Shown: one piece after another, positions 15,039 through 32,620 of the stretch
How the letters are laid out: every line of letters starts with the position of its first letter
Position numbering within the stretch: position 1 is the first letter of the stretch
Source of the DNA: a bacterium
GTDB lineage: Bacteria; Elusimicrobiota; Elusimicrobia; Elusimicrobiales; UBA9959
Assembly (NCBI GenBank): GCA_021811315.1
Contig: JAJZPF010000012.1
Span: forward strand, 1 to 64,000
Direction: 5' to 3'
Length of the DNA stretch: 64,000 bases
Translations under genes and position numbers: made by a program
Notes under the pieces: generated by a model
What the model saw: the letters and a program-made list of their open reading frames with translations, nothing else
What the model was told of the DNA's origin: nothing
Databases searched by the model: none

Positions 15039-16037
15039 TTAAAACGCCAGAACGGCGAATTTATAACAAAGCGCGGAGATAAACGCCGCGGCCGGGATGG
15101 TGATCACCCAGGCCCAGACTATGTTGCCGGCCACGCCCCATTTCACCGCGCGCACCCCCTTGAGCATCCCCACTCCGACTATGGAGCCGGTTATGGTATG
15201 AGTGGTGCTTATAGGCACGCCTATGGCCGAAGCGCCGAACAGGACCATGGACGCGCCGAACTCGGCGCAGAAGCCGTCCACCGGGCGCAGTTTGGAAAGT
15301 TTATTGCCCATGGTCTTGACTATGCGCCAGCCGCCCGACATGGTGCCCAGGGCGATGGCCCCGTGACAGGAGAGAACTATCCAGAGAGGGATATGGAATT
15401 CCGTACCGAGGTAGCCGGCGCTGAACAGGAGGCCAGCGATTATGCCCATGGTCTTCTGCGCGTCGTTGCCGCCGTGCCCCAGGCTGTAAGCCGCCGCGCT
15501 CAACAACTGCCCCTTGCGGAACAGGTTATCCACCTTGGACGGGGTGGAACGGGAGAAGAGATTATAAACTATCAATCCCAGCAGCAGCCCCAGCAGCATC
15601 CCGACTACGGGGGAGATCACTATAAAGGCGACCGTTTTTATTATTCCGCTCATCACCAGCGCCGTCGGCCCGGACTTTACCAGCGCGGCCCCGATAAGCC
15701 CGCCGACCAGGGCGTGGGAAGAGCTGGACGGGATGCCGAAGTACCAGGTTATCACGTTCCAGGTGCAGGCGCCCATCAGCGCGCCGAAGATGATATAGCT
15801 GTCCACCTGGCCCAGGTCAATTATGCCCTTGCTTATGGTCCCGGCCACATGCAGGCCGAAGAAGGCGAAGGCGATGAAGTTGAAGAAGGCCGCCCAGAGC
15901 ACCGCGTACCTCGGGGAGAGTACGCGGGTAGCGACGATAGTGGCTATGGAGTTGGCGGCGTCGTGGAAGCCGTTCGAAAAGTCGAAGAACAGCGCCAGCG
16001 CGATCAGCAGGATTATGGCTATAAGCGTATTATCCAT
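15039..16037 (-). CDS. PiT-family inorganic phosphate transporter
   Basis: DFSNGFHDAANSIATIVATRVLSP and GGNDAQKTMGIIA, typical PiT motifs. Confidence 0.95.
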   Translation of the reverse strand: MDNTLIAIILLIALALFFDFSNGFHDAANSIATIVATRVLSPRYAVLWAAFFNFIAFAFFGLHVAGTISKGIIDLGQVDSYIIFGALMGACTWNVITWYFGIPSSSSHALVGGLIGAALVKSGPTALVMSGIIKTVAFIVISPVVGMLLGLLLGLIVYNLFSRSTPSKVDNLFRKGQLLSAAAYSLGHGGNDAQKTMGIIAGLLFSAGYLGTEFHIPLWIVLSCHGAIALGTMSGGWRIVKTMGNKLSKLRPVDGFCAEFGASMVLFGASAIGVPISTTHTITGSIVGVGMLKGVRAVKWGVAGNIVWAWVITIPAAAFISALCYKFAVLAF

Positions 16038-16656
16038 GCTTCACCAGGATAGCCTCTATGACTTTGGCCACGTGCTCGCATTTATCCAGCGTGGATTCCG
16101 CCACTTCATACATCTCTTTCCACTTTATGACCATGATGGGGTCCTTCTCCGTTTCGAAGAGGTGGCCGATGGCTTTCTCCCGCACCTGGTCGCCCATGTT
16201 CTCCAGGCGGTTGATCTCTATGCAGTGGTCCAGCACGCGGCGGACGCGCTTGGTGTCGTGCATATGCTTTACGGCGTTCGAAAGGGCCACGGAGGACTGG
16301 TCGATGAGGTCGATGAACTGCGAGAAGTACTCGTTGCCCGGGTCCAGCTTGTAGAGCCGCATGCGGCCGGCCATCGCGTTGAGCATGTCCAGCACGTCGT
16401 CGAGCTGGTTGGCCAGCGCGTAGATGTCCTCGCGGTCGATGGGGGTGATGAAAGTGCGGTTGAGCATGTCGGTGATCTCGTGGGACAGCGTATCGCCCTC
16501 GTGCTCGTAGTCGTGGATCTTCTTGGCGGCGGCTTCGTCCAGCACGCCGTTCTTGAGTATGGATTTAAAATAAGCGGAGGCCTTCACCAGGTTTTCGGCC
16601 TGCAGATTGAGATAATCAAAGAACTTCACTTCTTTCGGCATGAAATTAATGGACAT
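16030..16656 (-). CDS. DUF47 / PhoU-like protein paired with PiT
   Basis: FFDYLNLQAENLVKASAYFKSIL, HEGDTLSHEITDMLNRTFITPIDREDIYALANQLDDVLD. Confidence 0.92.
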   Translation of the reverse strand: MSINFMPKEVKFFDYLNLQAENLVKASAYFKSILKNGVLDEAAAKKIHDYEHEGDTLSHEITDMLNRTFITPIDREDIYALANQLDDVLDMLNAMAGRMRLYKLDPGNEYFSQFIDLIDQSSVALSNAVKHMHDTKRVRRVLDHCIEINRLENMGDQVREKAIGHLFETEKDPIMVIKWKEMYEVAESTLDKCEHVAKVIEAILVKHG

Positions 16657-16698: not shown

Positions 16699-17367
16699 TT
16701 ATTTTAATTCTTCCGGGTGGTGGCGGACCACCACGGCGGAAACCATGTAGATGATGTCTTCGGCCATGCTCACGGCGTGGTCGCAGACCCGCTCCAGGTG
16801 GCGCGCGGCCAGCAGCAGCGGCACGGCCCTGTCCGCCGTGGAACCGTCCCTCATCATATAGTCGTTGATCAGCTCTTTTTCTACGCCGCGTTTAAGCGTA
16901 TCGGCTTCCGGGTCGGAAAGAACGACTTTTTTCGCGAGCTCCGTGTCGCCGTTTATAAAGGCCTGGATAGCTTCCCCGGTCATGCGCTGGGCCACCCCGG
17001 CAAGTTTGGGAATATCCACGAGCGGCTTGAGCAGCGGCTTGTCGGCGATGGCCAGCGCCCGCTGGGCCACGTCCACGGCCAGGTCGCCTATGCGTTCCAG
17101 TTCCGCGTTCAGCTTTATCGCGGTGGTGATAAAGCGGAGGTCCCGCGCCATCGGCTGGTGCAGGGCGATCAGGTCCAGGCATTTTTCGTCTATGACCAGC
17201 TCCAGCCTGTCCATTTCCACGTCGGAGTCTATCACTTTCTGCGCGGCGGTCCTGTCGCGGTTCTTAAGGGAATCCACGGAATTTATTATGGCTTCCTGCG
17301 CCATGGCGCCCATTTTAAGGATGTCGTTCTTCAGCTGCTGCAGCTCGTCGTCGAAATGTCTTTGCAT
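16699..17367 (-). CDS. phoU: phosphate transport system regulator PhoU
   Basis: MQRHFDDELQQLKNDILKMGAMAQEAI, RDLRFITTAIKLNAELERIGDLAVDVAQRA. Confidence 0.95.
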   Translation of the reverse strand: MQRHFDDELQQLKNDILKMGAMAQEAIINSVDSLKNRDRTAAQKVIDSDVEMDRLELVIDEKCLDLIALHQPMARDLRFITTAIKLNAELERIGDLAVDVAQRALAIADKPLLKPLVDIPKLAGVAQRMTGEAIQAFINGDTELAKKVVLSDPEADTLKRGVEKELINDYMMRDGSTADRAVPLLLAARHLERVCDHAVSMAEDIIYMVSAVVVRHHPEELK

Positions 17368-17376
17368 GGTCCTCTC

Positions 17377-18246
17377 CTAGCCGAATCTTCCGGTTATATA
17401 GTCTTCAGTGCGCTTGTCCCTCGGCGCCTTGAAGATCTTGTCGGTCCTGCCGACCTCTATCAGGTCCCCCATCAGGAAAAAGGCCGTGTTGTCGGAAACG
17501 CGCGCGGCCTGCTGCATATTATGCGTCACTATCACTATGGTGTATTCCTTCTTCAGCGTCAGTATCAGTTCTTCGATCTTGGCCGTGGAGATAGGGTCCA
17601 GGCTGGCGCAAGGCTCGTCGAAAAGTATGACCTCGGGCGAGACCGCGAGGCACCTGGCGATGCAAAGCCGCTGCTGCTGGCCGCCGGAAAGGCCGAGCGC
17701 GCTGTCCTTCAGCCTGTCCTTGATCTCGTCCCAGAGCGCGGCTTTTTTAAGCGAGTCCACCACCCGCTCCTCGATAAGGTGCTTATCCGTAACCCCGTTG
17801 ACCTCCAGGCCGTAGGCGATATTCTCGAAGACGGTCTTGGGAAAGGGGTTCGGCTTCTGGAAGACCATGCCGACCCGCTTGCGCAGCTCCGCCGCGTCGC
17901 AGGCCGGGGAAAGGATATCCAGCCCGTCGAGAAGGATCTCCCCCTCCAGGCGGCTGCCCGGAACCAGTTCGTTCATCCGGTTCAGCAGGCGGATGAAGGT
18001 GGATTTGCCGCAGCCGGAGGGGCCGATGATGGCGGTGACCCGGCGGGGGCTGAAGTCTATGGTTATCCCGTTAAGCGCGCGCTTCTGGCCGTAATAGAAG
18101 TTCACGCCGCGGGCGCTTATCTTCGGCTCCGTTCCGAACAGGTCGGCCTCTCCCATGGAGTTCATATTTATTCCCACCGGGGCTTTTACCGGCGCCGGCG
18201 GGAAATTCCCGCCCGCCGCTTTCGATCCTGGATCCTGGTTAAGCAT
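17377..18246 (-). CDS. pstB: phosphate ABC transporter ATP-binding protein
   Basis: [51 protein letters not shown]. Confidence 0.97.
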
Positions 18247-19093
18247 TATACGTTTTCCTTTGCCTGGCCCTAATGTAGATCGCCAGCATGGACACCGACA
18301 GCACCAGCGCCAGCAGCAGCAGGCTGGAGGCGTAGGCGATGCGGGTCTGTTCTTCGGGGTGCGTGCCCTCGGTCATCAGGGCGTAAATATGATACGGCAG
18401 GGCCATGACCTCGGAGAAGATCGAATGCGGGTAGCCTTTTACGTAGAAAGCCGCGGCGGTGAAAAGTATGGGCGCGGTTTCGCCGGCCACCCTGCCCACG
18501 CTCAGGATCACGCCCGTAAGTATGCCCGGCAGCGCGGCTGGCAGCACCACCCGGCGGATGGTCTCCCACTGCGTCGCCCCCAGGGCCAGCGAGGCCTCCC
18601 GGATGGACTGCGGGACCGCCGTCAGCGCCTCCTGGGAGGCGGAAATTATGACCGGCAGCGCGAGTATGCCGAGCGTAAGCGAGCCGGACAGGATGGAAAC
18701 CCCGAAGCCCATATATTTAACGAACACCGTTAGGCCGAACAAACCGAACACCACCGACGGCACGCCCGCCAGGTTGTTGATGCTGATGCGCAGCAGGTTC
18801 ACTATCCAGCCCCTGGGCGAATACTCGGTGAGATAGATGGCGCTGGCGACGCCCAGCGGCAGAGCGAAAATTATCGCGCCGAGCGTGAGGTAAAAGGTCC
18901 CGGCTATGACCGGCGCCACGCCGCCCGCCGTCATGGAGTCGCGCGGAGCCTGGGTCAGGAAAGCCCAGTTGATGGAGCCGAGGCCGCGGGCGGCTATGAA
19001 AAAGACGATGCCCCCCAGGAAAACGATGTTCGCCGCCATGCAGGCGAATAAGGCGGAGAAGCCCAGTTTTTGAACTATGTCGCGGCGCTTCAT
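18239..19093 (-). CDS. pstA: phosphate ABC transporter permease PstA
   Basis: [27 protein letters not shown] and [18 protein letters not shown]. Confidence 0.95.
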
Positions 19094-19992
19094 CTTGACA
19101 GCCCCAGTTTCAGCCTGAACCTGCGGCTGATAAGTTCCGCGGCGATGTTAAAGGCGAAAGTTATCAGGAAAAGCATCAGCGCTATGGCGAACAGCGCGTG
19201 GTAGTGGTCGCTGCCGACGGGCGCCTCGCCCATCTCGGCGGCGATCGCGGCGGTCATCGGGCGCACCGGGTCGAAGATGGAATGCGGGATAACGGCCGAG
19301 CCCCCGGCTACCATCAGCACCGTCATCGTCTCGCCTATGGCGCGGCTCATCCCGAGTATGATGCCCGTGGAGATGCCCGACCCGGCGGCCGGGATGATCA
19401 CTTTAGTGAGGGTCTGCCAGCGGTCGGCGCCCACCGCGAAGGAAGCCTCGCGGAAAGACCTGGGCACATAGCTCAGCGCGTCCTCGGCGATGCTCGCCAC
19501 CGTGGGCGTGGCCATAACCCCGAGTATGATGCTGGTGGTAAGCGCGCAAAGCCCGATGGGCAGGTTAAAAGTATCCTGGAGGAAGGGCGCGAGTATCACC
19601 ATCCCGAAAAAGCCGTAGACTATGGACGGGACCGAGGCGAGTATTTCGATCACCGGTTTTAGCAGGGCCCGCTGGCGCGGCCCGGCCAGTTCGTGCAGGT
19701 AAAGCGCGCTGCCCACGCCCAGCGGCACGCAGATCACCAGCGCCCCCAGCGTAACCCAGAGCGAAGCGAGGATGAGCGGCAGGATCCCGAATTCAGGCGG
19801 CGACGAGGTGGGATACCAGCTTTTCCCGAGCAGAAAAGCTTTCGGGCTGACCTTCCCGAAGATGGGCAGGGCTTCCCTGAAAAGAACGAACACTATGCCG
19901 ACAAGGAAGACCAGCGAGGCGAAAGCCAGCGCGGTGAACAGATATCTTATTATCCGTTCTTTCCGTTTATTCATCAGCGGCCGCCCGGTCAC
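19090..19992 (-). CDS. pstC: phosphate ABC transporter permease PstC
   Basis: EILASVPSIVYGFFGMVILAPFLQ and GMSRAIGETMTVLMVAGG; internal ATG at 19974 (MNKRKERI) is the likely start. Confidence 0.95.
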   Translation of the reverse strand: MTGRPLMNKRKERIIRYLFTALAFASLVFLVGIVFVLFREALPIFGKVSPKAFLLGKSWYPTSSPPEFGILPLILASLWVTLGALVICVPLGVGSALYLHELAGPRQRALLKPVIEILASVPSIVYGFFGMVILAPFLQDTFNLPIGLCALTTSIILGVMATPTVASIAEDALSYVPRSFREASFAVGADRWQTLTKVIIPAAGSGISTGIILGMSRAIGETMTVLMVAGGSAVIPHSIFDPVRPMTAAIAAEMGEAPVGSDHYHALFAIALMLFLITFAFNIAAELISRRFRLKLGLSR

Positions 19993-20009: not shown

Positions 20010-20063
20010 AGTATAAGAAAACCGGGTGAAGCCGGCATAAAAGGCGTGTAAAATCCGTGTAAA
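20010..20063 (-). promoter_or_regulatory. predicted Pho box (site A) plus -10, upstream of pstC
   Basis: Minus strand: TTTACA CGGAT TTTACA CGCCT TTTATG CCGGC TTCACC CGGTTTTCT TATACT. Confidence 0.88.
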
Positions 20064-20071
20064 GAAAAGGG

Positions 20072-20095
20072 GCCATGGAGAACCGTCTCCATGGC
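20072..20095 (-). terminator. intrinsic terminator after pstS
   Basis: GCCATGGAGA CGGT TCTCCATGGC then CCCTTTTCTTT on the minus strand. Confidence 0.7.
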
Positions 20096-20125
20096 GCCCT
20101 TCCCTTGTACAGGGGCTCCTGTCCC

Positions 20126-20953
20126 TTATTTAAGTCCCACGAAGCCTTCAGCTTCCACTATTTTCTGCCCCGCTTTGCTCTTTAGGAAGTCGAGGAACTG
20201 CTTGGCCGTCCCGGCGGGTTTCCCGTTGGTGTACATATAAAGCGGCCTGGATACGGGGTACTTGTGGTTGAGCACGGTGGCCTTCGAGGGCATCACGCCG
20301 TTCACCGAAAGGGCCTTTATGCTGGCGTTGAGATAGCCGAGGCCGACATAGCCTATGGCGCCCCGGGTGCGGGACACGGTGCTGCCCACGGCCTGGTTGG
20401 AAGCCTGCATGATAGCGTCGGCGCGGACCTTCTCCTTGTTCAGCACCAGCTCGTTAAAAGCCTCGAAAGTCCCGCTGGAGCTGTCCCGCGAGATCACCAC
20501 TATCTTAAGGTCGGGGCCGCCCACCTCGGACCAGTTGGAGAACTTGCCGGTATAGATGTTCTTGATCTGTTCCTTGGTAAGGCCTTTCACGGGGTTCGAA
20601 GGGTGTACCACGGGGGCTATGCCGTCCATGGCCACAACGAAGGGCTTTATGTCCTTGCCGCGCTTTTTTCCCTCCGCTACTTCTTCGGGCTGGATGGCCC
20701 TGGAAGAATCGGCTATGTCGCAGGCGCCGTCCAGGATGGAGGCTATGCCTACGCCGGAGCCGCCGCCGCGCACCGAAATGTCCGCGTCCTTGTGCAGCTT
20801 CATGAAGTCCTCCGCGGCGCGCTGCGCTATGGGCAGCACGGTGGTGGAGCCTTCAAGCACCACTTTCTGGCCGGCGAAAGCCGGCGCGCCCAAGGCTATA
20901 GCCAGGGCGGGCATTACCATCAGTTTCATCATTGTTTTCATTTTTTTCTCCAT
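20126..20953 (-). CDS. pstS: phosphate-binding protein PstS
   Basis: Signal peptide; VVLEGSTTVLPIAQRAAEDFMKLH, ISVRGGGSGVGIASILDGACDIADSSR, RDSSSGTFEAFNELVL. Confidence 0.95.
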   Translation of the reverse strand: MEKKMKTMMKLMVMPALAIALGAPAFAGQKVVLEGSTTVLPIAQRAAEDFMKLHKDADISVRGGGSGVGIASILDGACDIADSSRAIQPEEVAEGKKRGKDIKPFVVAMDGIAPVVHPSNPVKGLTKEQIKNIYTGKFSNWSEVGGPDLKIVVISRDSSSGTFEAFNELVLNKEKVRADAIMQASNQAVGSTVSRTRGAIGYVGLGYLNASIKALSVNGVMPSKATVLNHKYPVSRPLYMYTNGKPAGTAKQFLDFLKSKAGQKIVEAEGFVGLK

Positions 20954-20979
20954 ATTTTTCCCTATTCGTTCGAGTTAGC

Positions 20980-22218
20980 TTAAAACTTCAGGTTCAGGTC
21001 GGCCTGCAGCAGATGTTCCCGCTTGGATGTGTCGCTTATCCGCTTCGAGGCATAATAGTCGGCTTCCACGTTCATATTGCGGGCCACGCCCAGCGTAAGC
21101 ACCATTTCCGCGCCTTTTACGCCGGTGGAGCCGCCGTAGAAGTCGGAGTCGGGATAAGTATCCAGCCAGGCCTCCGCCTCCAGCCTGCGCAGCGAGTACC
21201 TGAACTGCCACTGCCCGGCCTCCTCCACCTTGCGCTGGCCCAGCTTGAAGCCGGCCAGCCAAGCGGCGCTCCGCCGGGAGTGGTCAGTGGCTTTCACGCC
21301 GCCGCCGAAAAGCCCGGCGTAATCCAGCTTAAGGCCGGTCCCGGCGATGTTTATCGGCGCGAAGCCCTTGTTCAATTCCGCGTCCGCCGCCAGCGACTCG
21401 TAATTATATTTATAGTCGGAACCCGCGAGCGTGTTCGATTTAACGTAGCTGCTTGCGGTGGAAGGCCTGTTGGCCAGCTCGCCGCGGCCCTTTACGTTGG
21501 CGAAGCCATAGTAGGTCATCGCTGCGGTAAAGTCCAGCTTATCCGCCCCGCTCCATTTGAACCCGGCCTGCCCGGCCGCCAGGTAAGGGGCCTGCGAACT
21601 GGAGGCGCTCTCGTCCAGCGCGAACCACGCGCCCGCGGCGAAAGGCTGGAACCCGGTTTTTTGCCGCGAGGCTAACCTGAAGGCGGCGCCCTCCGGATTT
21701 ATATCCCCGTCCCAGAGCATGTCGTTGGAGGTCCAGAAAGGATTGTGCATCCTGCCGCCGGTGAAGGAAAAGCCGCCGGCGCCCTTGTACTCCGCGTAAG
21801 CGTAATCGAGGTACAGGTCCTTCTTGGAGAAGTTGGAGGTCAGGGTCTGGTTGGTTGAGCGGGAATCGGCGCTCGAGCCGCTGGCCATCCCGAGACCCAC
21901 GGTCCAGGTGTCGTTCACCGCGGCGTCGGCGCCGGCGCGCAGGCGGATGCGCCCGCGGGACTCCCTTACGGTCCTGTCGTTATTGTCCACGCTTTCGGCG
22001 CGCAGGCGCATATCCCCGTGGAACTTCATGGTCTGCAGCCAGAGCGGGAGCTCCGCTTTGGGCTGCGGGCGTTCCGCGGCCTTTATCTCCTGTACTTCCG
22101 CGGGAGCGATCACGTTCTTCTCGGCAAGCCGGTAGAGAAGCATATCCATCTCTCCGGCGCGGGCGGGCGCGGCCGCCGCGAGTACCAGCAGGGTCAGCAG
22201 GGTGTTCTTTAGTTTCAT
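20980..22218 (-). CDS. outer-membrane porin-like protein in the Pho locus
   Basis: Signal peptide, coiled-coil-like N-terminus, alternating beta-strand pattern, terminal aromatic residue (LNLKF). Confidence 0.75.
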   Translation of the reverse strand: MKLKNTLLTLLVLAAAAPARAGEMDMLLYRLAEKNVIAPAEVQEIKAAERPQPKAELPLWLQTMKFHGDMRLRAESVDNNDRTVRESRGRIRLRAGADAAVNDTWTVGLGMASGSSADSRSTNQTLTSNFSKKDLYLDYAYAEYKGAGGFSFTGGRMHNPFWTSNDMLWDGDINPEGAAFRLASRQKTGFQPFAAGAWFALDESASSSQAPYLAAGQAGFKWSGADKLDFTAAMTYYGFANVKGRGELANRPSTASSYVKSNTLAGSDYKYNYESLAADAELNKGFAPINIAGTGLKLDYAGLFGGGVKATDHSRRSAAWLAGFKLGQRKVEEAGQWQFRYSLRRLEAEAWLDTYPDSDFYGGSTGVKGAEMVLTLGVARNMNVEADYYASKRISDTSKREHLLQADLNLKF

Positions 22219-22224
22219 AACTAA

Positions 22225-22278
22225 AGTTTAGAAAAACCGCTTAAAGGCGGCATGAAGGAGGTGTAAATTATGGGTAAA
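22225..22278 (-). promoter_or_regulatory. predicted Pho box (site B) plus -10, upstream of porin-pstS
   Basis: Minus strand: TTTACC CATAA TTTACA CCTCC TTCATG CCGCC TTTAAG CGGTTTTTC TAAACT. Confidence 0.88.
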
Positions 22279-22296
22279 GGAGTAAAAGCAAAAAAA

Positions 22297-22319
22297 GAGG
22301 CCGCCATTACGGCGGCCTC
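22297..22319 (-). terminator. intrinsic terminator for the 22347-22928 gene
   Basis: GAGGCCGCC gtaat GGCGGCCTC then TTTTTTT on the minus strand. Confidence 0.88.
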
Positions 22320-22346
22320 AAGTCCGGCGGTCCCGGCCTGCTTCTA

Positions 22347-22928
22347 TTATAAGGAAGCCGCGGCGGCGCTGGTGAACCCGGCTTTCACGTTCCCATTGGC
22401 GTCAAGGAACTCGGCGGCGACGAAGCTTATCAGCTGCTGGGGATCGAGAGGGTTGATCCTGGGGGCCACGGCGCCGTCCTCATGGTCGGGAGTGGAAAGC
22501 GCGTCTATAAAGTAAGCGCTGACCTGACCGTTTTTCTGCCCGGCATTGGTGGCGATGTAAGTCAGCCCGTACTGCATCCAGTCCCCGCCGGTGAAATAAA
22601 CTTCTATCCTGCGGGACAGCCCTTTAGAGTCGGTAAAGCTGAACACCTTCAGGATCCTTGAATTCTCCTCGGTGTGGACCAGCTTGTAGATCCCAGGGAA
22701 AGCGGAAACCACTTCGTAGTTCTGCGTGCATTGGGCGGTAATATCCTGCAGGTGCAGGGTGCGGTAGTCATAGCTGACTATGGCAGGCGCGGGCACGGAA
22801 GGCGTCTGGGGCGCGCCGGCCGAGGGCAGCTGGCCGAACGCGTAAGGCACGGGGCCCGTCTGCGCGAAAGCGGAGCCGGACAGGGAAACCAATACTATTA
22901 AGGAAAACAGATTAACGAACTTTTTCAT
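22347..22928 (-). CDS. hypothetical secreted protein
   Basis: Signal peptide MKKFVNLFSLIVLVSLSGSAFAQ, RBS GGAGG upstream. Confidence 0.75.
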   Translation of the reverse strand: MKKFVNLFSLIVLVSLSGSAFAQTGPVPYAFGQLPSAGAPQTPSVPAPAIVSYDYRTLHLQDITAQCTQNYEVVSAFPGIYKLVHTEENSRILKVFSFTDSKGLSRRIEVYFTGGDWMQYGLTYIATNAGQKNGQVSAYFIDALSTPDHEDGAVAPRINPLDPQQLISFVAAEFLDANGNVKAGFTSAAAASL

Positions 22929-23127
22929 GACACGAAGCCTCCGAAATATAATTTTCTGTTATATTCCCGATACTTTGTGCTAAGTTCCGTTATTAGGTGG
23001 GTGAACTTAACGCGCCTTCCGACCGTAATCCGGGAAGGACATCACTGCCGGAGGTAGTCTTAGGTGTTTAAGGATACCAGCGCAGCTTGTAAGATACGGA
23101 AACTACTCTGCAGACTGACATTGCTGT
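22929..23127 (-). ncRNA. structured leader RNA or ncRNA upstream of 22928
   Basis: About 200 nt between a strong promoter and the next start codon, with several complementary segments and no credible ORF. Confidence 0.45.
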
Positions 23128-23133
23128 ACCAAT

Positions 23134-23162
23134 ACTATAGCAAAAAGTGCGGACCTTGTAAA
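23134..23162 (-). promoter_or_regulatory. sigma70-type promoter
   Basis: Minus strand TTTACA, 17 nt, TATAGT with extended -10 TGC. Confidence 0.7.
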
Positions 23163-23163
23163 G

Positions 23164-24132
23164 CTATTGCCCGCCTATCCTGAACTGCTGCGTTCCGCCA
23201 AGATCGGTCCGGAACACGGTAGCGCCGACTGCCTGCAGATTGGATAAGGTCACCGGGGCAGGGAAAGCGAAGATATTATCCTTGCCGACCTCTATATAAG
23301 CGTATTTAGGCTTTACCGCGTTAAGGAAAGCCGGGCTGGTAGCCGTATTGCTGCCGTGATGCCCCACTTTAAGGACATCCGACTGCAGCAGGGCGCCGTA
23401 TTTCGCCACCAAATTGGCTTCCTGGTCCGACTGCATGTCGCCCACGAAGAGCAGGGAAGTGTTCTGATAGGTGACCTTAAGCACGATAGAGCAGTTATTG
23501 ATCACGGGGCCTGAATTGCTTCCGCCGGGGGCCGCGCAGGCGTTGAAAACGTTCACCTGGACTTCAGGCATATCCCAGTTCAGGCTGTCGCCGGGCGAAG
23601 GGTAAATAGTATTGACGCCCATCGCGCTGATCTTGTCGCGCAGGATCTTCGCGCCGGCCGCGCCGGTATTGTCCTCGCGGGTGTCGTAAAAATTGTCCAC
23701 TTTCAGATTGGTGAAAACGAAAGACAGCCCGGCGTAATGGTCCAGGTGCGGATGGGTGAGAACCACATGGTTGATCCTTTTGACGCCGTGCTGGAGGAGG
23801 AACTGGGCGAGCGGGGCCGTGGGATTGGGACCGCCGTCGATAAGGACATTGCCGCCGTTGGGCAGTTCTATGTATTCCGCGTCCCCCTCGCCTACGCTGA
23901 TGAAATAAGCGTTCAGCGGCGGCGGCGCTTTGAGAGGGCCGGGAAAGGGAGCGGGGGCCGACGGATCAGGGACTCCGGAAAAAACAGGGGAAGCGTTGGA
24001 TGAAAGGGACTCGAACGCGCTCGCAGCGAAAAGCCGGGGCCCCTGGGAAAAGACCAGCAGCCCCGAAAGGAGCAGAACGGCGGTGAAAAGTTTTTTCAGG
24101 TTCACGGTAGTGGTCTGACTTTTGGTTCTCAT
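23164..24132 (-). CDS. secreted metallo-beta-lactamase-fold protein, ComEC/Rec2 hydrolase-like
   Basis: VLTHPHLDHYAGLSFVFTN, ILLFVGDMQSDQE-type region, LKVGHHGSNTATSPAFLNAVKPKYAYIEVG. Confidence 0.88.
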   Translation of the reverse strand: MRTKSQTTTVNLKKLFTAVLLLSGLLVFSQGPRLFAASAFESLSSNASPVFSGVPDPSAPAPFPGPLKAPPPLNAYFISVGEGDAEYIELPNGGNVLIDGGPNPTAPLAQFLLQHGVKRINHVVLTHPHLDHYAGLSFVFTNLKVDNFYDTREDNTGAAGAKILRDKISAMGVNTIYPSPGDSLNWDMPEVQVNVFNACAAPGGSNSGPVINNCSIVLKVTYQNTSLLFVGDMQSDQEANLVAKYGALLQSDVLKVGHHGSNTATSPAFLNAVKPKYAYIEVGKDNIFAFPAPVTLSNLQAVGATVFRTDLGGTQQFRIGGQ

Positions 24133-24259
24133 ATCATCTGCCGTTGAAGCGGGCGCAACTTCGCCCTTTATCCAATATAGTCTATCAGTCTTAAATAAAA
24201 TAAAGGAGAGTCTTAGGACCCAGGAGGAAACAGACTTTAGACCTATATCCGGTTCCAGC

Positions 24260-24430
24260 CTAAGCGGCCGCTGAAACGCAGGCAGCGTTGGTTGGAAGGT
24301 CGCCGGTGTTCGAGGGAGCGGACGGCTCTTCCACTCCGACGCCCAGGTTTTCGAAGTCCGCCGCGTAAGCCGCGCCGTTCAGGACGAGCAGCACCGCCGT
24401 GATCATCATCATTTCTTTGCTTTTGTTCAT
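24260..24430 (-). CDS. 56-aa secreted microprotein
   Basis: MNKSKEMMMITAVLLVLNGAAYAADFENLGVGVEEPSAPSNTGDLPTNAACVSAAA; RBS GGGGAG 4 nt before ATG; Pho box upstream. ORF track over-extends the start to 24592. Confidence 0.7.
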   Translation of the reverse strand: MNKSKEMMMITAVLLVLNGAAYAADFENLGVGVEEPSAPSNTGDLPTNAACVSAAA

Positions 24431-24473
24431 AGTTCTCCCCTTTCGATCTATAACTTCAGTAACTCCTGAACAA

Positions 24474-24527
24474 AGTTTAACAAAGGCCCATAAAGGGCGT
24501 TTAAGATACGGGTAAAATGCGGGTAAA
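24474..24527 (-). promoter_or_regulatory. predicted Pho box (site C) plus -10, upstream of the 56-aa microprotein
   Basis: Minus strand: TTTACC CGCAT TTTACC CGTAT CTTAAA CGCCC TTTATG GGCCTTTGT TAAACT. Confidence 0.88.
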
Positions 24528-24539
24528 GAAAAAACGGGC

Positions 24540-26312
24540 CTATTTAGGGAGCGTGAACCAGAACGAGGAGCCGCGGCCTTCGGCGCTTTCAACCCCGACG
24601 GCGCCGCCGTGCAGGTCGATGACGTGCTTCACTATGGAAAGGCCCAGGCCGGTCCCGCCCATCTCGCGGGAGCGGGCTTTATCGGCGCGGTAAAAGCGCT
24701 CGAACACCCTGGGCAGGTGCTCCTGGGGAATGCCTATGCCGCTGTCGCTCACCGTTATTTTTACGCTATCCGGCAGTTCGGCGGCGGAGACCTCCACTTT
24801 GGCGTTCTCCGCGGAAAATTTTACGGCGTTATCCAGCAGGTTCACGAAAACCTGCCCCAGTTTCTCCGGGTCGGCCTTGACGGTGAGCCCGGGCGGTATT
24901 TTATTAACGACGGCGGCCTTTTTGGCTTTGAACACGGAAGCCAGCCCGGAGATCAGGGAGTCGGCCAGGTCTTTCAGGCCGACCTCGCTCTTATGCACTT
25001 CCACCGCGTAGGATTCCAGGGAAGAAAGCTTCAGCAGGTCGCTTACTATATTGTCCAGGCGCCTGGACTGGGTGTGAATGACGTTCAAGAACTCCACCGC
25101 GTGCGCCTTGTCGTCAATGGCGCCCTCCAGCAGGGTCTCGACGTAGCCGCGGATAGCGGTAAGCGGGGTCTTCAGTTCGTGCGAGACGTTCGCCACGAAG
25201 TCCCTGCGCTTGCCCTCCAGGCGCCGCACTTCGGTGATGTCGTGCACCACCATAAGGCAGCCCGACACTTCCCCCCCCGTGAACATGGGCGAAGCGTTTA
25301 CGCTGAAGATACCCCGGACGGGGACCGAAAGCTCCATTTCCTCCGCCACCGGCTTCCCGCCCGAGATGGCGCGCGCGCAGATCCCGCTTAAGCCCGCGTT
25401 AGGAATGACTTCCAGCAGCGGCTTGGAGATGGAGCCGGCGGCTTTCACGCTGAACAGCCGCTCCATGGCCGGGTTAAGGGCCTTGATCCTTGCGTCGAGG
25501 CCCGTCACCATTACGCCCTCGGCCATATTGGCGAAGGCCGCCGACAGCTGCTGCGCCTGTATTTCCACCCTCAGCAGGTTCCCTTCGACCGAGGCCGCCA
25601 TGGAGTTCAGAGTTTCTGCCAGCTTTCCCATCTCGCCGTGAAAATCTTTCTGTATCCGGTAGGAAAAATCCCCGGAGGCGAATTTCTTGGAACCGTAAAC
25701 TATTTTATCGAAAGGCTTGGAAAAACCGGCCGAGACCGCCAGGCTCACGAAGAAAGAGAGCAGCAGGGCCAGCGCCAGCGCCGCCGCCAGGGCCTTTCTG
25801 AGCAGGGAGTTCATCGTATCGAGCTGCGCGGCGGGGATGGCCAGCCGCACCACCGCGCTGGGGCGTCCGGAGAAACTAACCGGGTAGGCGGCGTAAAGCA
25901 TGGCTTTACCAAGAGTAGCCGAACGGCGCAGGTCGTAGGAAGCCGCCCCCCCCAGCGCCCCGGCCACTTCGGGCCTCTCCCGGTGGTTCTCCATGGCCTT
26001 TACCCCCGCGGCGTCCAGCTCCGAATCCGCCAGCACCAGGCCGTCCGCGTTTATTATGGTCAGCCTTGAGGCCACTTTCTCGCCAAGGGAATGCGCCAGC
26101 TGGTTAATACCCGCGGAAGCCAGGTCCGCGGAGCTCAGCTGGGCGGAAACCAGCGCGGCCTCGTCCGAAAGCTTGAGCTTTAAAGTGGAAAGTTCGGCGC
26201 GATCTATGCGCTGGTACACCAGGAAGAAAGCGGCCCCGAGCACGGCCGCCGACAGGGCCAGGTAGGAAAGAAAAAGCCTGAACCTGAAAGTTTTAAATAT
26301 CGCCGGCATCAT
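24540..26312 (-). CDS. phoR: PhoR-like sensor histidine kinase
   Basis: HAMP, PAS, FVANVSHELKTPLTAIRGYVETLLEGA, GGTGLGLSIVKHVIDLHGG. Confidence 0.92.
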   Translation of the reverse strand: MMPAIFKTFRFRLFLSYLALSAAVLGAAFFLVYQRIDRAELSTLKLKLSDEAALVSAQLSSADLASAGINQLAHSLGEKVASRLTIINADGLVLADSELDAAGVKAMENHRERPEVAGALGGAASYDLRRSATLGKAMLYAAYPVSFSGRPSAVVRLAIPAAQLDTMNSLLRKALAAALALALLLSFFVSLAVSAGFSKPFDKIVYGSKKFASGDFSYRIQKDFHGEMGKLAETLNSMAASVEGNLLRVEIQAQQLSAAFANMAEGVMVTGLDARIKALNPAMERLFSVKAAGSISKPLLEVIPNAGLSGICARAISGGKPVAEEMELSVPVRGIFSVNASPMFTGGEVSGCLMVVHDITEVRRLEGKRRDFVANVSHELKTPLTAIRGYVETLLEGAIDDKAHAVEFLNVIHTQSRRLDNIVSDLLKLSSLESYAVEVHKSEVGLKDLADSLISGLASVFKAKKAAVVNKIPPGLTVKADPEKLGQVFVNLLDNAVKFSAENAKVEVSAAELPDSVKITVSDSGIGIPQEHLPRVFERFYRADKARSREMGGTGLGLSIVKHVIDLHGGAVGVESAEGRGSSFWFTLPK

Positions 26313-26998
26313 TTATTCTCGAAGCGGTAGCCGTAATTCTTGACCGTTATGATGCGCTTGCCCTCTGACTTGAGCTTTTTTCGCAGCGTTCCCACGTGCA
26401 CGTCCACGGTGCGGGTTTCCACCTCGAGCGAGGCGTCCAGGCCCCAGGCCTTCTCCAGCAGGGCCTCGCGCGACAGCATTTTACCGCCTGAAACCATCAG
26501 GGCCTTCAGCAGCTCGAATTCGCGCGCGGTTATCTCGAGCGGTTTCCCTTTCACGAGCGCCAGCACGCGGGAGCAATCCAGTTCAAGGTCTCCGGCGCGG
26601 TAGATTTCCAGGGTCTCGGCGGCGGCCGTCGAGCGGCGCAGCACGGCTTTCACGCGGGCCAGGAGTTCCTTCACGCTGAAAGGCTTCGTCACGTAATCGT
26701 CGGCGCCTAGGCCGAGGCCCAGGACCTTGTCGGCTTCCTCGCCTTTGGCGGTAAGCATGATTATGGGTATAGAAGCGGTCTTTGCGTCCGCCTTGAGGCG
26801 GCGGCAGACTTCCAGGCCGTCGAGGCCGGGCAGCATCAGGTCCAGGATCACCAGGCGGGGCCTTTCTTTGGCGGCCAGCAGCGGCGCGGCCGACCCCTCG
26901 TGCGCGAGCACCGTGCGGTAGCCCTCTTTTTTTAGGTTATAGTCCAGCAGCCTGGCTATGTCCTTCTCATCCTCTACTATAAGTATCTTCTCGTCCAT
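26309..26998 (-). CDS. phoB: PhoB-like response regulator
   Basis: MDEKILIVEDEKDIARLLDYNLKKEGY; OmpR-type winged-helix C-terminus (LLEKAWG..VDVHVGTLRKKL). Confidence 0.93.
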   Translation of the reverse strand: MDEKILIVEDEKDIARLLDYNLKKEGYRTVLAHEGSAAPLLAAKERPRLVILDLMLPGLDGLEVCRRLKADAKTASIPIIMLTAKGEEADKVLGLGLGADDYVTKPFSVKELLARVKAVLRRSTAAAETLEIYRAGDLELDCSRVLALVKGKPLEITAREFELLKALMVSGGKMLSREALLEKAWGLDASLEVETRTVDVHVGTLRKKLKSEGKRIITVKNYGYRFENK

Positions 26999-27025
26999 AC
27001 ATGGATATGATAGCAAAACCAAAAT

Positions 27026-29086
27026 TCACAGAAGCCGTTTCTCCAGCAGAGTTCCTTTGTAAGAACTCCGGGCCAGGGAGGCAAAACGGAATTGCGAGCG
27101 CAGGGGCTTCCCGCCGGCCGCCTGTTTGACCCTGTCGTAAGTACCATCCGCCTGCAGCTGCCTCGCTTTCACATTATCAGCCAGGCCGCCTTCCAGTATT
27201 TCCTCTTTGACATACCGCTTCAGGAGCGGGTCGGACACCGGGAAAGCTATCTCGTAGCGGCTGTAGAAGTTGCGCGGCATCCAGTCGGCGCTGGAAAGAA
27301 AAAGCTTTCCCGCGCCGCCGGCGCGGAAATAAAAGATCCGCGAATGCTCCAGGAAGCGGTCGACTATGCTGAGAACTTTAATGTTCTCGCTCAGGCCCTT
27401 TATACCCGGCTTAAGGCAGCAGATCCCGCGCACCAGCAGGCGCACCTTAACGCCCGCCGAGGAAGCGGCATAGAGAGCTTTTATAACATCCGGATCAACG
27501 AGTGAATTCATCTTGGCCATTATCAGCCCGCCGCCGGACTGACGGTGAAAAGATATTTCCTCGCGTATCAAGCGCATTACGCTGCTGCTAAGGTTTACGG
27601 GCGCGACCAGCAGCTTCTTGAACCGCGGAAGCGGCCGGCCGGCGGCAAGGGAATTGAAATAGCCGTAGACCTCCGCGCCTATCTCCCGATCGCAGGTCAG
27701 GATGCCGATGTCCGTGTATTGCCGCGCCGTGCCGTAATGGTAATTCCCGGTGCCCAGGTGGGTGTAGGCGATGTTCTCCAGCCCCTCTTTGCGTATGACC
27801 TGTGTCACCTTGCTGTGCACTTTCGTTCCTTTGAACGGCGGGATCACGCGGGCGCCGGCGGCGCGCAGTTCTTTCATCCAGCGCAAATTATTCTCTTCGT
27901 CGAAGCGGGCCTTTACCTCTACGTAAACGACGACCTTCTTGCCCTTGGAAGCCGCTTCTTTAAGAGCTTCCATTACCGGGGAACGCGGCCCGGCGCGGTA
28001 GGCTACGTGGTAGATCTCGGTGACGGCGGGGTCCGCGGCCGCCTCTTTCAGGAAATTGACCACGATATCGAAAGAATCGTAAGGGTGGTGGAGCATGATG
28101 TCATGCTTCTTTATCGTCCGCATTATGCGCCCGGCGTTCCTGAAGGGACCCGGCACGGCCGGAAGAATGGCGGGATATTTGAGCCGCTCGAAGCCGGGAA
28201 GGGAGCAAACGGCGAACATGGATTTCAGGTCCAGCGGCATGTCGAAGCGGTAAAGAGAAGCCGAGTCCAGCCGCAGCGCCGAGGCCAGGAACATCGCCCC
28301 CTCTGAATAGTACGGCGCGTCCACTTCAAGGCGGACCACCCTGGAGCGCTGCTTGTTAAGGGATTGGTGCTCGATGTAATCCTCCACCGGGTCTTCGTCG
28401 TCCGGGCTATACCTCAGGTCATGCTCCCTGATTATCTTGAACGGGAAAACCTCGATGACCTCCCTGTCCTTGAAAAGCTCGTGCACTTTAGAGCACAGCC
28501 AGCGCTCCGCCAGGGCGAAGACGGCCGTCCCATCCGGCGACGCCAGCCTCAGAAGCCGGAGCTCGCGCTCGTTTATGGTGATAACGGCGTATTCCCCCGG
28601 GAAGCGGACGAAGACGTGAATCCGGTCCCCCTTCAGTTCGGGGAGCGGGTCGGAGGATTTCTTCACCGCCGGGTTCAGGTTTTTCAGTTTTCTCCAGATC
28701 TCGGCGTCGAAGGGCGCCTGGGCGCCGTCGAACCGGGAATGCACCGTTATGCCGGCCCTGCGCAGCTCGTTAAAGATATCCTCCAGCACGGAGGCCTGCC
28801 GGCTCTTCTGGCGCAGGACCTCCTCGCGTATCTGGACTATGGCCTGGGCGGCGCTCAGCCCGTCCGGCGAGCGCCGCGACGGGTCTTTCCGGGCCAGGCG
28901 CGCGGCCTCGGCCACGCGCACCATGAAGAACTCGTTGAGGTTGGAACTCACGATCGCGGCAAACCGCAGGCGCTCCAGCAGGGGGACGCTCCGGTCCGCG
29001 GCCTCGCCCAGGACGCGGTCGTTGAAACTGAGCCAGCTCATGTTCCTGTTGAAGAACTGGCGGCGGGAAAGGTGGTTGATCATCAT
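27026..29086 (-). CDS. ppk1: polyphosphate kinase 1
   Basis: FNRNMSWLSFNDRVLGEA, HHPYDSFDIVVNFLKEAA, THLGTGNYHYGTARQYTDIGILT. Confidence 0.97.
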   Translation of the reverse strand: MMINHLSRRQFFNRNMSWLSFNDRVLGEAADRSVPLLERLRFAAIVSSNLNEFFMVRVAEAARLARKDPSRRSPDGLSAAQAIVQIREEVLRQKSRQASVLEDIFNELRRAGITVHSRFDGAQAPFDAEIWRKLKNLNPAVKKSSDPLPELKGDRIHVFVRFPGEYAVITINERELRLLRLASPDGTAVFALAERWLCSKVHELFKDREVIEVFPFKIIREHDLRYSPDDEDPVEDYIEHQSLNKQRSRVVRLEVDAPYYSEGAMFLASALRLDSASLYRFDMPLDLKSMFAVCSLPGFERLKYPAILPAVPGPFRNAGRIMRTIKKHDIMLHHPYDSFDIVVNFLKEAAADPAVTEIYHVAYRAGPRSPVMEALKEAASKGKKVVVYVEVKARFDEENNLRWMKELRAAGARVIPPFKGTKVHSKVTQVIRKEGLENIAYTHLGTGNYHYGTARQYTDIGILTCDREIGAEVYGYFNSLAAGRPLPRFKKLLVAPVNLSSSVMRLIREEISFHRQSGGGLIMAKMNSLVDPDVIKALYAASSAGVKVRLLVRGICCLKPGIKGLSENIKVLSIVDRFLEHSRIFYFRAGGAGKLFLSSADWMPRNFYSRYEIAFPVSDPLLKRYVKEEILEGGLADNVKARQLQADGTYDRVKQAAGGKPLRSQFRFASLARSSYKGTLLEKRLL

Positions 29087-29130
29087 ATCGCCTCCGGCGC
29101 GGGCCGCGAAGCGGCGGCCCCTCCGGCTAT

Positions 29131-29184
29131 ATTATAAACAAGGCGTGTGCAGGGAGGGTAAAATGCGGGTAAAGCCGGGGTAAA
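29131..29184 (-). promoter_or_regulatory. predicted Pho box (site D) plus -10, upstream of ppk1
   Basis: Minus strand: TTTACC CCGGC TTTACC CGCAT TTTACC CTCCC TGCACA CGCCTTGTT TATAAT. Confidence 0.9.
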
Positions 29185-29185
29185 A

Positions 29186-29998
29186 TCAGAAAGCGCGGAC
29201 GTTCTCTGTCGGCGTGGACGGGCTCTTGATGAAACAGCTGAGCACCCGGTGATATTTATCCATTGGCTCGGCGTGCATAGGGAACTTCTTTGCAAGTTTC
29301 CCGTCGAATTCCAGAAGGTTGTCTATGTGTTCCAGCTTCGCCCCGAGCTCGTTGTCGTCGCTCTTTATCTCGTTCTCGTACTCCCAGAAATTGGAGACGG
29401 AGTGGAAAGAGCCGGCGTTTATGTGGAAAGCGCTGATATGGTCCAGGGAAGGTTCCAGCGCCGCCTTACCCATCTGCACCAGGTATTTTTCTTTCCGGTA
29501 CAGGCAGATCACCGGGGCTACGCAGACCTTCTTAATTATGGAAGAGGAGAAATGTTCCGAAAGGGCCGTCTTCATATCTTTCGGCAGGGACCTTTCCATG
29601 ATATCGCGGAACTTGGCGTCAGTGAAATGAATAATGTCGTGGAGACTTTCTTCTTTCACGAGGTTCTTCACCCTGCCCGAAGAGAACTCCGAGCGGAAAA
29701 GAAGCCCTTTATGGGAAAAACCATGCCCCTTGTACTGGACGTACACGTTGCTGCCGTCGCCCTTGTATCTTATACGCATGCTCGCGCCGGAATGGAAAAT
29801 ATCGAAATTGGGCGTGTCGATGAACTGGTCCATGAACACGGCGCTCTTGATATGCCTTACCCCCTTTTTTTTTGCGAAGTAGGCCTTTATGGCCTTTGCG
29901 GTCTCCGGGGAGATCTTTTTTTTTGCCTCTATCTCTATCTTGGAGGCGTTATGCACCCTCAGCTTGTGACAGACATAGGAGATGAGGAATTCATTCAT
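29186..29998 (-). CDS. CYTH/VTC-like triphosphate-tunnel superfamily protein
   Basis: IEIEAKKKIS N-terminal motif, FIDTPNFDIFHSGASMRIRYKG, VYVQYKGHGFSHKGLLFRSEFS; start set at internal Met. Confidence 0.55.
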   Translation of the reverse strand: MNEFLISYVCHKLRVHNASKIEIEAKKKISPETAKAIKAYFAKKKGVRHIKSAVFMDQFIDTPNFDIFHSGASMRIRYKGDGSNVYVQYKGHGFSHKGLLFRSEFSSGRVKNLVKEESLHDIIHFTDAKFRDIMERSLPKDMKTALSEHFSSSIIKKVCVAPVICLYRKEKYLVQMGKAALEPSLDHISAFHINAGSFHSVSNFWEYENEIKSDDNELGAKLEHIDNLLEFDGKLAKKFPMHAEPMDKYHRVLSCFIKSPSTPTENVRAF

Positions 29999-30117
29999 AA
30001 TTTTTATCGCCGCAATGCGCAGTCCCGTACCATACGAAAATATGATAGCAGATGGCAGTCCTGAAGGCAAAAAAAGCCTGGCGAGCCGGGCGGCGCGGTC
30101 CGACGCTCCGGAGGAGT

Positions 30118-31272
30118 TCAGATACCGCAGACTGCGGCGGGCTGACCGCCAAGGACCTTAGCGACCCCGGGATCCCTGCCCAGTATGTTCTCGACGCGGT
30201 ATTTTGCGGAAGGATGGTCGGCGGAGGTTATCGCCACCAGCAGCGAGCCGGCTTCTCCCTCAGTACCGCAGATCAGCTCGTAAGATTTGCCCAGATAGTC
30301 CAGCCCGCCGGAACGCGGCATAAAGGCCGGCAGCGCGGAAACGGCCCAGTAGTCCGCCAGCACCTCGTCCCAGTTCTTGAAGCTCTGGCCGTAAGCCGAT
30401 TTCAGGCAGCCGGCATAGCCCGCGTAGAGCGAAGGGAAACGGCCGGAATCGATGGAATGCGCGGTCTCGTGAAGAAGGACGAAGTCGAGCCGAGCCGGCG
30501 CGCCGTCGCCGCGCATCTCGGCCAGGAGGATGCCCGGGTATACTATTATGACGCTCTGGTTGGGCCTGAGCTCCGGATTCCCCGCCCCGCCCAGATCCTC
30601 ATAAGACGCGTTCCAGGCCTGGTCGGCCACGAGCTGCGGGATCACCGGCCAGAGCTCTTCGCTGGACGTAATATATTTCCTGATATATTGCGAGGGAAGT
30701 ATAAGCGAGGTCAGCTCTACCCTGTTCACCAGTTCCGCTTTTACGGGGATCTCCAGGCCCGAAGACTTTATACGGGCTATCAGGGCCGCTTTTATCCGCC
30801 CGTAATCCGGCATGGGCATCTTGTTCAGGACCGCGGCCTCTATCACCTCGGCGAACTCGGCCAGCGCCCCTTTCGACTTTTCTATCTGGTACGGGAAAGT
30901 ATAGGAAACACTGTTGAGCGCGGAGTTAATAAAATCCCCGCTTTGCAGGTCCGGCAGGCCGTATTTCTTAACCACGGCCTGGAATCCGGGGCGGATTTCC
31001 GGCTCGAGCGCTTTCAGGTTGGCGCTGCGGCGCTTGTCCCTGGCCTCGCTCAGCGCGGCGGGATCCGCTCCGCAGATGTCCGCGTAGGCTATCCCTGACG
31101 CCGTTTCAGCGGCGGGAGCCGGCGCGGGGGTCGCCGGGGAGGCGCTTTTCCGGCTCAGCAGCAGTTCGTCGGCGGACAGCGCGGCCTTGTCCAGCGAAGA
31201 GGCGCAGGCGTACGAAGCAGCCAACGCCGCCGCGGCGGTTATCGTAATGAAGGTCAGCGGCCTGGGTGCCAT
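30118..31272 (-). CDS. secreted protein with HExxH zinc-metallopeptidase-like motif
   Basis: Signal peptide MAPRPLTFITITAAAALAASYACASS; DFVLLHETAHSIDSGRFPSLYAGYAG. Confidence 0.6.
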   Translation of the reverse strand: MAPRPLTFITITAAAALAASYACASSLDKAALSADELLLSRKSASPATPAPAPAAETASGIAYADICGADPAALSEARDKRRSANLKALEPEIRPGFQAVVKKYGLPDLQSGDFINSALNSVSYTFPYQIEKSKGALAEFAEVIEAAVLNKMPMPDYGRIKAALIARIKSSGLEIPVKAELVNRVELTSLILPSQYIRKYITSSEELWPVIPQLVADQAWNASYEDLGGAGNPELRPNQSVIIVYPGILLAEMRGDGAPARLDFVLLHETAHSIDSGRFPSLYAGYAGCLKSAYGQSFKNWDEVLADYWAVSALPAFMPRSGGLDYLGKSYELICGTEGEAGSLLVAITSADHPSAKYRVENILGRDPGVAKVLGGQPAAVCGI

Positions 31273-31318
31273 ACCTACAGTATAATGCACGCCCGGCCCG
31301 CGCGCAAGAGGGTATGAA

Positions 31319-31372
31319 TTTACCCGGTTTTTACATATATTTCACAACTCACTTACCACTGTACTGTAGAAT
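31319..31372 (+). promoter_or_regulatory. predicted Pho box (site E) plus -10, upstream of the 57-aa microprotein
   Basis: Plus strand: TTTACC CGGTT TTTACA TATAT TTCACA ACTCA CTTACC ACTGTACTG TAGAAT. Confidence 0.88.
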
Positions 31373-31411: not shown

Positions 31412-31585
31412 ATGCCAGCCAATAACACCATCAAAAAATCAGCCGCCATACTCGCGTTCTTCATAGGCGCCGCCGCGTGGGTCGCGCACGAGGCTAAACA
31501 GGAAACCCGCCCCGCCGCCCCGAATACGCCCAGCCAGTCAGAGACCCCCAACTCCGACGTAGTCCTTCGCCCCCTTACCGACTGA
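31412..31585 (+). CDS. 57-aa putative membrane-anchored microprotein
   Basis: MPANNTIKKSAAILAFFIGAAAWVAHEAKQETRPAAPNTPSQSETPNSDVVLRPLTD; GGAGAG 7 nt upstream; below the ORF-track length cutoff. Confidence 0.65.
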   Translation: MPANNTIKKSAAILAFFIGAAAWVAHEAKQETRPAAPNTPSQSETPNSDVVLRPLTD

Positions 31586-31741
31586 CTCGCCTCAGCCCCC
31601 AGGAGGTCCCGCCCAAAAGGTCAAAAGTAAAGACCCCGCCCCCCGCGGGGCGGCGGTCTGGCGGTTTGGACGGGTTTTATTGTAGATTGTTGGAACAAGT
31701 TAAAAAACCTAAACCCTGTTGCAAGCGGTCAGGAGCGCGCT

Positions 31742-32620
31742 ATGAAACACGATCCCAAAATACTTTTAAAACCCGGCAGGAAACTGCAGCTAAAGGACTT
31801 CGACTCCGGGTACACCGGCACGTTCAAGGACAAGGCGGGCGCTAAGGAAAAACTCGCAAAAGACATTGAAAGGATGACCGGGCTCCAGGCCAGATTATAC
31901 GCGGAGAACCGGCACGCCGTCCTGCTCATCTTCCAGGCCATGGACGCGGCGGGCAAGGACAGCACCATCAAACACGTGATGTCGGGGATCAACCCGCAAG
32001 GCTGCCAGGTGGTCAGTTTCAAGCAGCCGTCGACACTCGAACTCAATCATGATTTTTTATGGCGCACGGTCCAGCACCTTCCCCAGCGCGGGATGATAGG
32101 CATCTTCAACCGCTCCTACTACGAGGAGGTCCTGGTAACGCGCGTGCACCCGGAGCTGGTCCTGAAACAGAACCTGCCCGGGATGCACAATGTCGAAGAC
32201 ATTCCCAAGTCGCTGTGGGAAACCCGGTTCTCGCATATCAACCATTTTGAAAAGATGCTGGCCGAAAGCGGCACGCGGATCGTAAAGTTCTTCCTGCACG
32301 TGAGCAAGCACGAACAGAAAAAGCGCTTCCTCGAGCGCATAGAGAACCCCGAGAAGAACTGGAAGATAGCCATGGCCGACGTGGAAGAGCGGGCCTGCTG
32401 GAGCGCTTACCAGAATGCCTACGAGAACGCGCTCACGAAGACCTCCACGGACCTGGCGCCCTGGTATATCATCCCCGCGGACAACAAGTGGTTCATGCGC
32501 GCCGCGGTCGGCGACATCCTTGTGAAGACGCTTAAGGAGCTTAAGTCGGAGTATCCGTCGGTAGCCGGCGCGAAAGCCGCCGACCTGGCCAGGATAAAGC
32601 GGATCTTGATGAAGGAATAG
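31742..32620 (+). CDS. ppk2: polyphosphate kinase 2 family protein
   Basis: LIFQAMDAAGKDSTIKHVMSGINPQGCQVVSFKQPS, FNRSYYEEVLVTRVHPE, VEERACWSAYQNAYENAL. Confidence 0.95.
   Translation: MKHDPKILLKPGRKLQLKDFDSGYTGTFKDKAGAKEKLAKDIERMTGLQARLYAENRHAVLLIFQAMDAAGKDSTIKHVMSGINPQGCQVVSFKQPSTLELNHDFLWRTVQHLPQRGMIGIFNRSYYEEVLVTRVHPELVLKQNLPGMHNVEDIPKSLWETRFSHINHFEKMLAESGTRIVKFFLHVSKHEQKKRFLERIENPEKNWKIAMADVEERACWSAYQNAYENALTKTSTDLAPWYIIPADNKWFMRAAVGDILVKTLKELKSEYPSVAGAKAADLARIKRILMKE

Follow-up and report, generated by a model that had tools for sequence, protein, structure and literature searches.

What controls the phosphate genes gathered in one part of the window, a stretch of 64,000 nucleotides from a member of the Elusimicrobiota, is the question raised by five similar 54-bp segments that lie upstream of these genes. 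Read from the sequence, the five sites are very probably PhoB-dependent activator promoters (Pho boxes). A search for papers that deal with Elusimicrobi* together with a 'Pho regulon' gave no relevant result.

The phosphate cluster and its five sites

Each of the five sites (A to E, Table 1) contains four hexamers at an 11-bp period, followed after 9 bp by a -10 element. The sites are spread over no more than 11.4 kb, and TTTAC is the core in all of them. The coordinates, strands, hexamers, spacers and -10 elements given in a preliminary description were reproduced letter for letter. The same description reported no -35 box, and no sigma-70 -35/-10 pair was called at any of the five sites. Site E is the lowest profile match among the five (E 0.0014). 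Site C directly follows the phoR stop codon, and its leader is 43 nt long with a Shine-Dalgarno (SD) sequence.

Table 1. Predicted promoter sites, genes and hairpins of the phosphate cluster (positions in the window)
Feature	Position	Strand	Remarks
Site A, predicted Pho box promoter of pstC-pstA-pstB-phoU-DUF47-Pit	20010..20063	-	profile E 9.1e-14; repeat starts 20063, 20052, 20041, 20030; -10 TATACT at 20010-20015
Site B, predicted Pho box promoter of porin-pstS	22225..22278	-	-10 TAAACT at 22225-22230
Site C, predicted Pho box promoter of a 56-aa secreted-like protein	24474..24527	-	profile and sequence reading
Site D, predicted Pho box promoter of ppk1-phoB-phoR	29131..29184	-	profile and gene order
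Site E, predicted Pho box promoter of a 57-aa protein, then PPK2	31319..31372	+	
DUF47 (PhoU_div) and Pit (PHO4) phosphate transporter	15039..16656	-	
pstA, pstB, phoU	16699..19093	-	
pstC, phosphate permease	19090..19992	-	
Intrinsic terminator at the end of the porin-pstS unit, immediately upstream of site A	20072..20095	-	-24.6 kcal/mol, z -5.3
pstS, phosphate-binding protein	20126..20953	-	
Porin_5 family porin, leading the site B unit	20980..22218	-	signal-peptide-like start MKLKNTLLTLLVLAAAAPARA
Hairpin and T tract resembling a terminator, immediately upstream of site B	22297..22319	-	
phoR/pnpS sensor kinase	24540..26312	-	Cache-like, HAMP, PAS, HisKA and HATPase domains
phoB, OmpR-family response regulator	26309..27022	-	recognition helix RTVDVHVGTLR
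ppk1, polyphosphate kinase	27026..29086	-	
57-aa protein and PPK2 polyphosphate kinase	31412..32620	+	

The minus strand of the cluster carries Pit, DUF47, phoU, pstB, pstA, pstC, pstS, porin, a metallo-beta-lactamase-fold gene, phoR, phoB, ppk1 and CYTH. PPK2 is encoded on the plus strand, and beyond it lie minus-strand genes of the CHAD and histidine-phosphatase types. The phoR-phoB pair is thus encoded in the same cluster as the five sites, as had been described earlier. PhoB (TIGR02154) is the best NCBIfam model for the regulator, yet the score lies below the cut-off (242.8 vs 296.2), and the kinase scores 399.4 bits against the PnpS model, the cut-off of which is 400. The TTG start listed for phoB (26998-27022) is probably too early, as conservation among homologues begins at Met9.

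The genes ppk1, phoB and phoR are arranged head to tail, overlapping slightly or separated by no more than 3 bp. Control by site D therefore most likely extends to phoB-phoR, and PhoB is probably autoregulated through this site. Polyphosphate synthesis and the regulator may be co-induced from the ppk1-phoB-phoR run (24540-29086, minus strand). Strong terminator-like hairpins precede sites A and B, which makes it likely that porin-pstS is transcribed separately from pstCAB-phoU. Upstream of pstC sites in general, the mean folding energy is -21.3 kcal/mol vs -15.5 kcal/mol in controls, and insulation holds there on average. Terminator insulation of every Pho promoter was considered and dropped, since DUF47 sites (-15.4 kcal/mol) resemble the controls (-15.5 kcal/mol). 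In many relatives DUF47-Pit has a Pho box of its own.

Two small secreted-like proteins are encoded behind the predicted Pho boxes, one of 56 aa (24260-24430, minus strand) and one of 57 aa (31412-31585, plus strand). Two relatives encode proteins resembling the latter (51 aa and 39 aa), in each case in the interval from a Pho box to phoB.

Rarity, repeat anatomy and start codons

A degenerate search for the whole pattern (at most 3 mismatches) returned exactly sites A to E in the window, against an expectation of 0.00 from 100 dinucleotide shuffles. The shorter pattern TTTAC-N6-TTTAC, with at most one mismatch, occurs 9 times in the window vs 1.5 expected, and 8 of the 9 occurrences fall inside the five sites. 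Three occurrences of TTTACN6TTTACN6TTTAC with at most one mismatch were found in the 2.67 Mb genome, all of them in the cluster (sites A, D and E). The preliminary description had suggested a genome-wide scan with a 54-bp matrix. A profile of 54 bp, derived from 33 sites, was run against the own genome, the scan scoring pre-filtered candidates only, and at E<=10 it recovered the five sites of the phosphate cluster and no others. The pattern was accordingly confined to this cluster; its being equally common inside genes or before genes unrelated to phosphate had been named beforehand as the outcome that would speak against the proposal. The own genome is a draft (2.67 Mb, 48 contigs, 63% complete), so further members of the regulon may be missing from it.

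Almost all copies of repeats 1 and 2 read TTTAC(A/C). More variation is seen in repeat 3, TT(T/C)A(A/T/C), and in repeat 4, TTNA(C/T/A), and most units are followed by C. A fifth repeat was sought and none was found. The sequence TAnnnT lies at exactly +9 in 104 of 107 matches of a repeat-only scan, in which many of the loci had originally been picked with a profile covering the -10 element as well. This element has the consensus TANACT, and its fifth position is C in 74 of 88 cases; it resembles a poor sigma-70 -10, which would suit an activated promoter.

At site B, 6 nt separate the end of the -10 element from the porin ATG (22218), and no SD sequence is present. The same combination of a 6-nt gap and no SD is found in 19 of 28 porin sites, and a 7-nt gap in 9 of 22 pstC sites, although the pstC gap of the own genome is longer. 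DUF47 sites have an SD sequence in 33 of 33 cases and gaps of 28-67 nt. A 5' UTR shorter than 8 nt without an SD sequence characterizes leaderless mRNA (PMC10783764), and the spacing at site B indicates that the porin transcript is probably leaderless. Among SD-less open reading frames of the genus, TAnnnT is in excess 12-13 nt upstream of the start codon (25 and 16 vs about 3, the loci being non-independent), and the SD-less genes preceded in this way include some phoB and non-Pho genes. This excess suggests that leaderless genes are common in the genus.

Distribution among relatives and comparison with known Pho boxes

For a phylogenetic footprint, the surroundings of phoB orthologues were scanned in 20 members of the genus. 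The architecture recurred there, and a reversed-profile control on the genus loci gave zero matches. The architecture is present in 31 of 32 genus genomes. In a scan of the phylum, 50 of 341 Elusimicrobiota genomes matched, and 46 of the 50 belong to the same family. The 102 family sites lie mainly upstream of DUF47-Pit (33), porin (28), pstC (22), ppk1 (5) and phoB (2), with single sites also before pstS and PPK2-type genes; sites of the ppk1 class, like site E, score far below the others and are individually less certain. The earlier proposal of a phosphate regulon is supported by this occurrence before Pho genes throughout the genus and in much of the family. In two relatives, Pho-box-like sites were read before alkaline-phosphatase-like and metallophosphoesterase-like genes, targets that extend the predicted regulon.

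A count that does not depend on the profile gave a similar picture. In loci chosen by phoB, 36 TTTAC pairs are spaced at 11 bp vs a mean of 0.8 at other distances. The motif also co-occurs with the regulator, being present in 37 of 38 family genomes with a close PhoB orthologue vs 6 of 15 without one (Fisher p 1e-5); several of these six genomes are incomplete.

Pho boxes of the established kind consist of 11-nt direct repeat units to which PhoB or PhoP binds head to tail (PMC4415409), and the E. coli box lies about 10 bp above the -10 element (PMC1906773); the core of the repeat differs from species to species. The preliminary description had recognized in the 11-bp direct repeats above a -10 the established layout of PhoB/PhoP boxes, in agreement with these sources (PMC4415409, PMC1906773). 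The sites contain four units at the 11-nt period, where two are enough for a Pho box, lie about 10 bp above the -10 where they replace the -35, precede phosphate-acquisition genes, and are accompanied by a PhoB/PhoR-type pair (best match, below the equivalog cut-off). They are classed, by sequence features, as putative Pho boxes of the established kind with a lineage-specific core.

The resemblance to the E. coli Pho box includes the 11-nt head-to-tail repeats, the lack of a -35, the phosphate genes and the PhoB/PhoR pair (PMC4415409, PMC1906773). Unlike in E. coli, TTTAC is found here for TGTCA, the repeats always number four, and Thr occupies the position of PhoB Arg201. An E. coli-type core (CTGTCAT) was rejected on reading all five sites, and the difference from this motif that had been remarked on earlier holds, the core belonging to the TTNAC class of other Pho regulators.

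The PhoP box of Bacillus subtilis consists of TT(A/T/C)ACA-like hexamers with spacers of about 5 bp, four of which are used for strong binding. By this consensus it would be close to the present sites, with a nearly identical hexamer, 5-bp spacers and up to four repeats above the -10. It belongs to another phylum and another PhoB clade, whereas spacing and number are rigid here, and the Bacillales PhoB homologues included in the analysis have His201. The PhoP box of Streptomyces coelicolor (GTTCACC-N4) is likewise composed of 11-nt direct repeats, and its TTCACC is one base from TTTACC (PMC4415409), but the number and order of units vary there and are rigid here. The cyanobacterial SphR box (CTTAACCT, with 3-bp linkers) has an 11-bp period and a TTAACC-type core (PMC1906773); it differs in having three or more repeats and a variable distance to the gene, in contrast to the constant four repeats found here. 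The (T/C)GTCAC boxes of other Elusimicrobiota families share the period and the kinds of genes (porin, pstS, DUF47 and phoB) and go with a sister PhoB clade. Unlike the boxes of this family, they have an E. coli-like core, and their PhoB keeps Arg201.

PhoB clades, operator cores and alternative readings

In a tree of 118 PhoB-like proteins, the PhoB of this family and that of Omnitrophota form one clade (100/98), and the PhoBs of other Elusimicrobiota families form a separate clade (100/99). The residue at E. coli position 201 is Thr in 27 of 27 proteins of this family and in 6 of 6 of Omnitrophota, the recognition helices being RTVDVH(I/V)GTLR or similar and RTVDVH(I/V)(R/Q/T)TLR, respectively. 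In other Elusimicrobiota families the helix is RT(V/I)DQH(I/V)ARLR or a close variant, with Arg201 in 20 of 20.

The operators are divided in the same manner. A motif-free count of 5-mers repeated at 11 bp returned TTTAC in this family and in Omnitrophota, and GTCAC/CGTCA/TGTCA in other Elusimicrobiota families. The TTTAC sites of Omnitrophota lie in pst/phoBR clusters before Pho genes. Pairs of GTCAC and TGTCA at 11 bp number 12 and 9 in the other Elusimicrobiota families vs about 0.1, and many of the (T/C)GTCAC pairs precede porin, pstS, DUF47 or phoB. A third unit, where one is present after the GTCAC pair, is in many cases nTTTAC; this would align TTTAC on GTCAC and make the guanine and a G-C pair the lost positions. 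The sites of these families often read (T/C)GTCAY-N5-(T/C)GTCAY-N5-nTTTAC or nTTGAC-N8-(T/C/A)ATGG, and the conserved ATGG sits where the -10 is expected. Support is weaker in other phyla, where loci with Arg201 have 5 GTCAC pairs vs 0.5 and loci with His201 have 4 TTAAC pairs vs 0.4.

In the crystal structure of E. coli PhoB with DNA, Arg201 forms a hydrogen bond with guanine (PMC3973317), and Thr201 in its place fits a box that has no TGTCA guanine. Residue 201 may have caused the change of core; the link is a correlation, because it represents essentially one evolutionary event (one split in the tree). An even chance is given to the broader proposal that the PhoB regulon of Elusimicrobiota was recoded as a whole. 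In that scenario, Arg201 would have changed to Thr and all boxes from (T/C)GTCAC to TTTAC together in the ancestral lineage of this family, the pair would be common to Omnitrophota by transfer or common descent, and boxes, -10 and start codon would have been fused into a leaderless cassette in part of the regulon.

The repeats are improbable as operators of a different regulator of the OmpR family, such as a WalR/YycF-like protein. Their targets are nearly all phosphate genes, the motif tracks this PhoB orthologue and the same PhoB clade in Omnitrophota, and the regulator encoded next to the sites is matched best by the PhoB model. These facts weigh against several that would suit such a regulator, namely that a WalR/YycF-like box on the opposite strand resembles TTTACA-N5-TTTACA, that predicted YycF sites of S. 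epidermidis (TTAACA/TTTACA-N5-TTTACA) include pstS (PMC5405149), that the adjacent kinase also matches WalK models, and that the own genome has at least 69 response-regulator matches. As a class, WalR/YycF-type boxes were rejected on gene context, the targets being phosphate genes and not those of the cell wall.

The very rigid geometry down to the -10 and the departure of TANACT from the house consensus could also be expected of alternative-sigma promoters that have an extended upstream element and no activator operator. This reading is considered very unlikely, as four in-phase 11-bp repeats fit head-to-tail binding by an OmpR-family protein, and sister families change the repeat sequence and the PhoB helix but keep the period and the gene context. 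Least credible of all is a recent duplication of one promoter segment, with no selection for an operator. The five sites are close together, as such an origin would have them, but they have hexamers, period and -10 in common and not their spacers and flanks, and orthologous sites across many species and in Omnitrophota contradict it.

With the sites taken as Pho boxes, PhoR would phosphorylate PhoB under phosphate limitation, and PhoB would bind the four direct repeats (TTTACMC-N4, one per helical turn) head to tail, probably as two dimers. The upstream pair of repeats may act as a strong anchor and the downstream pair as weaker sites. PhoB would thus be placed over the missing -35 and hold sigma region 4, and polymerase would then start transcription from a deliberately weak -10 (TANACT) that follows the last hexamer at a distance of exactly 9 bp. 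The predicted output is phosphate import (porin, PstSCAB and Pit) together with the making and use of polyphosphate (Ppk1 and PPK2), and site D would feed back on phoB-phoR.

Beyond the preliminary description, the analysis adds the proposed Thr201/TTTAC recoding within the phylum and a porin mRNA that is probably leaderless. The fixed leaderless starts predicted for porin and pstC suggest that leaderless translation is routine in Elusimicrobiota. The sites define a predicted PhoB regulon and its box in a phylum whose gene regulation is hardly documented, and they present a natural experiment in which a one-residue change of a regulator appears to have moved together with its whole set of operators.
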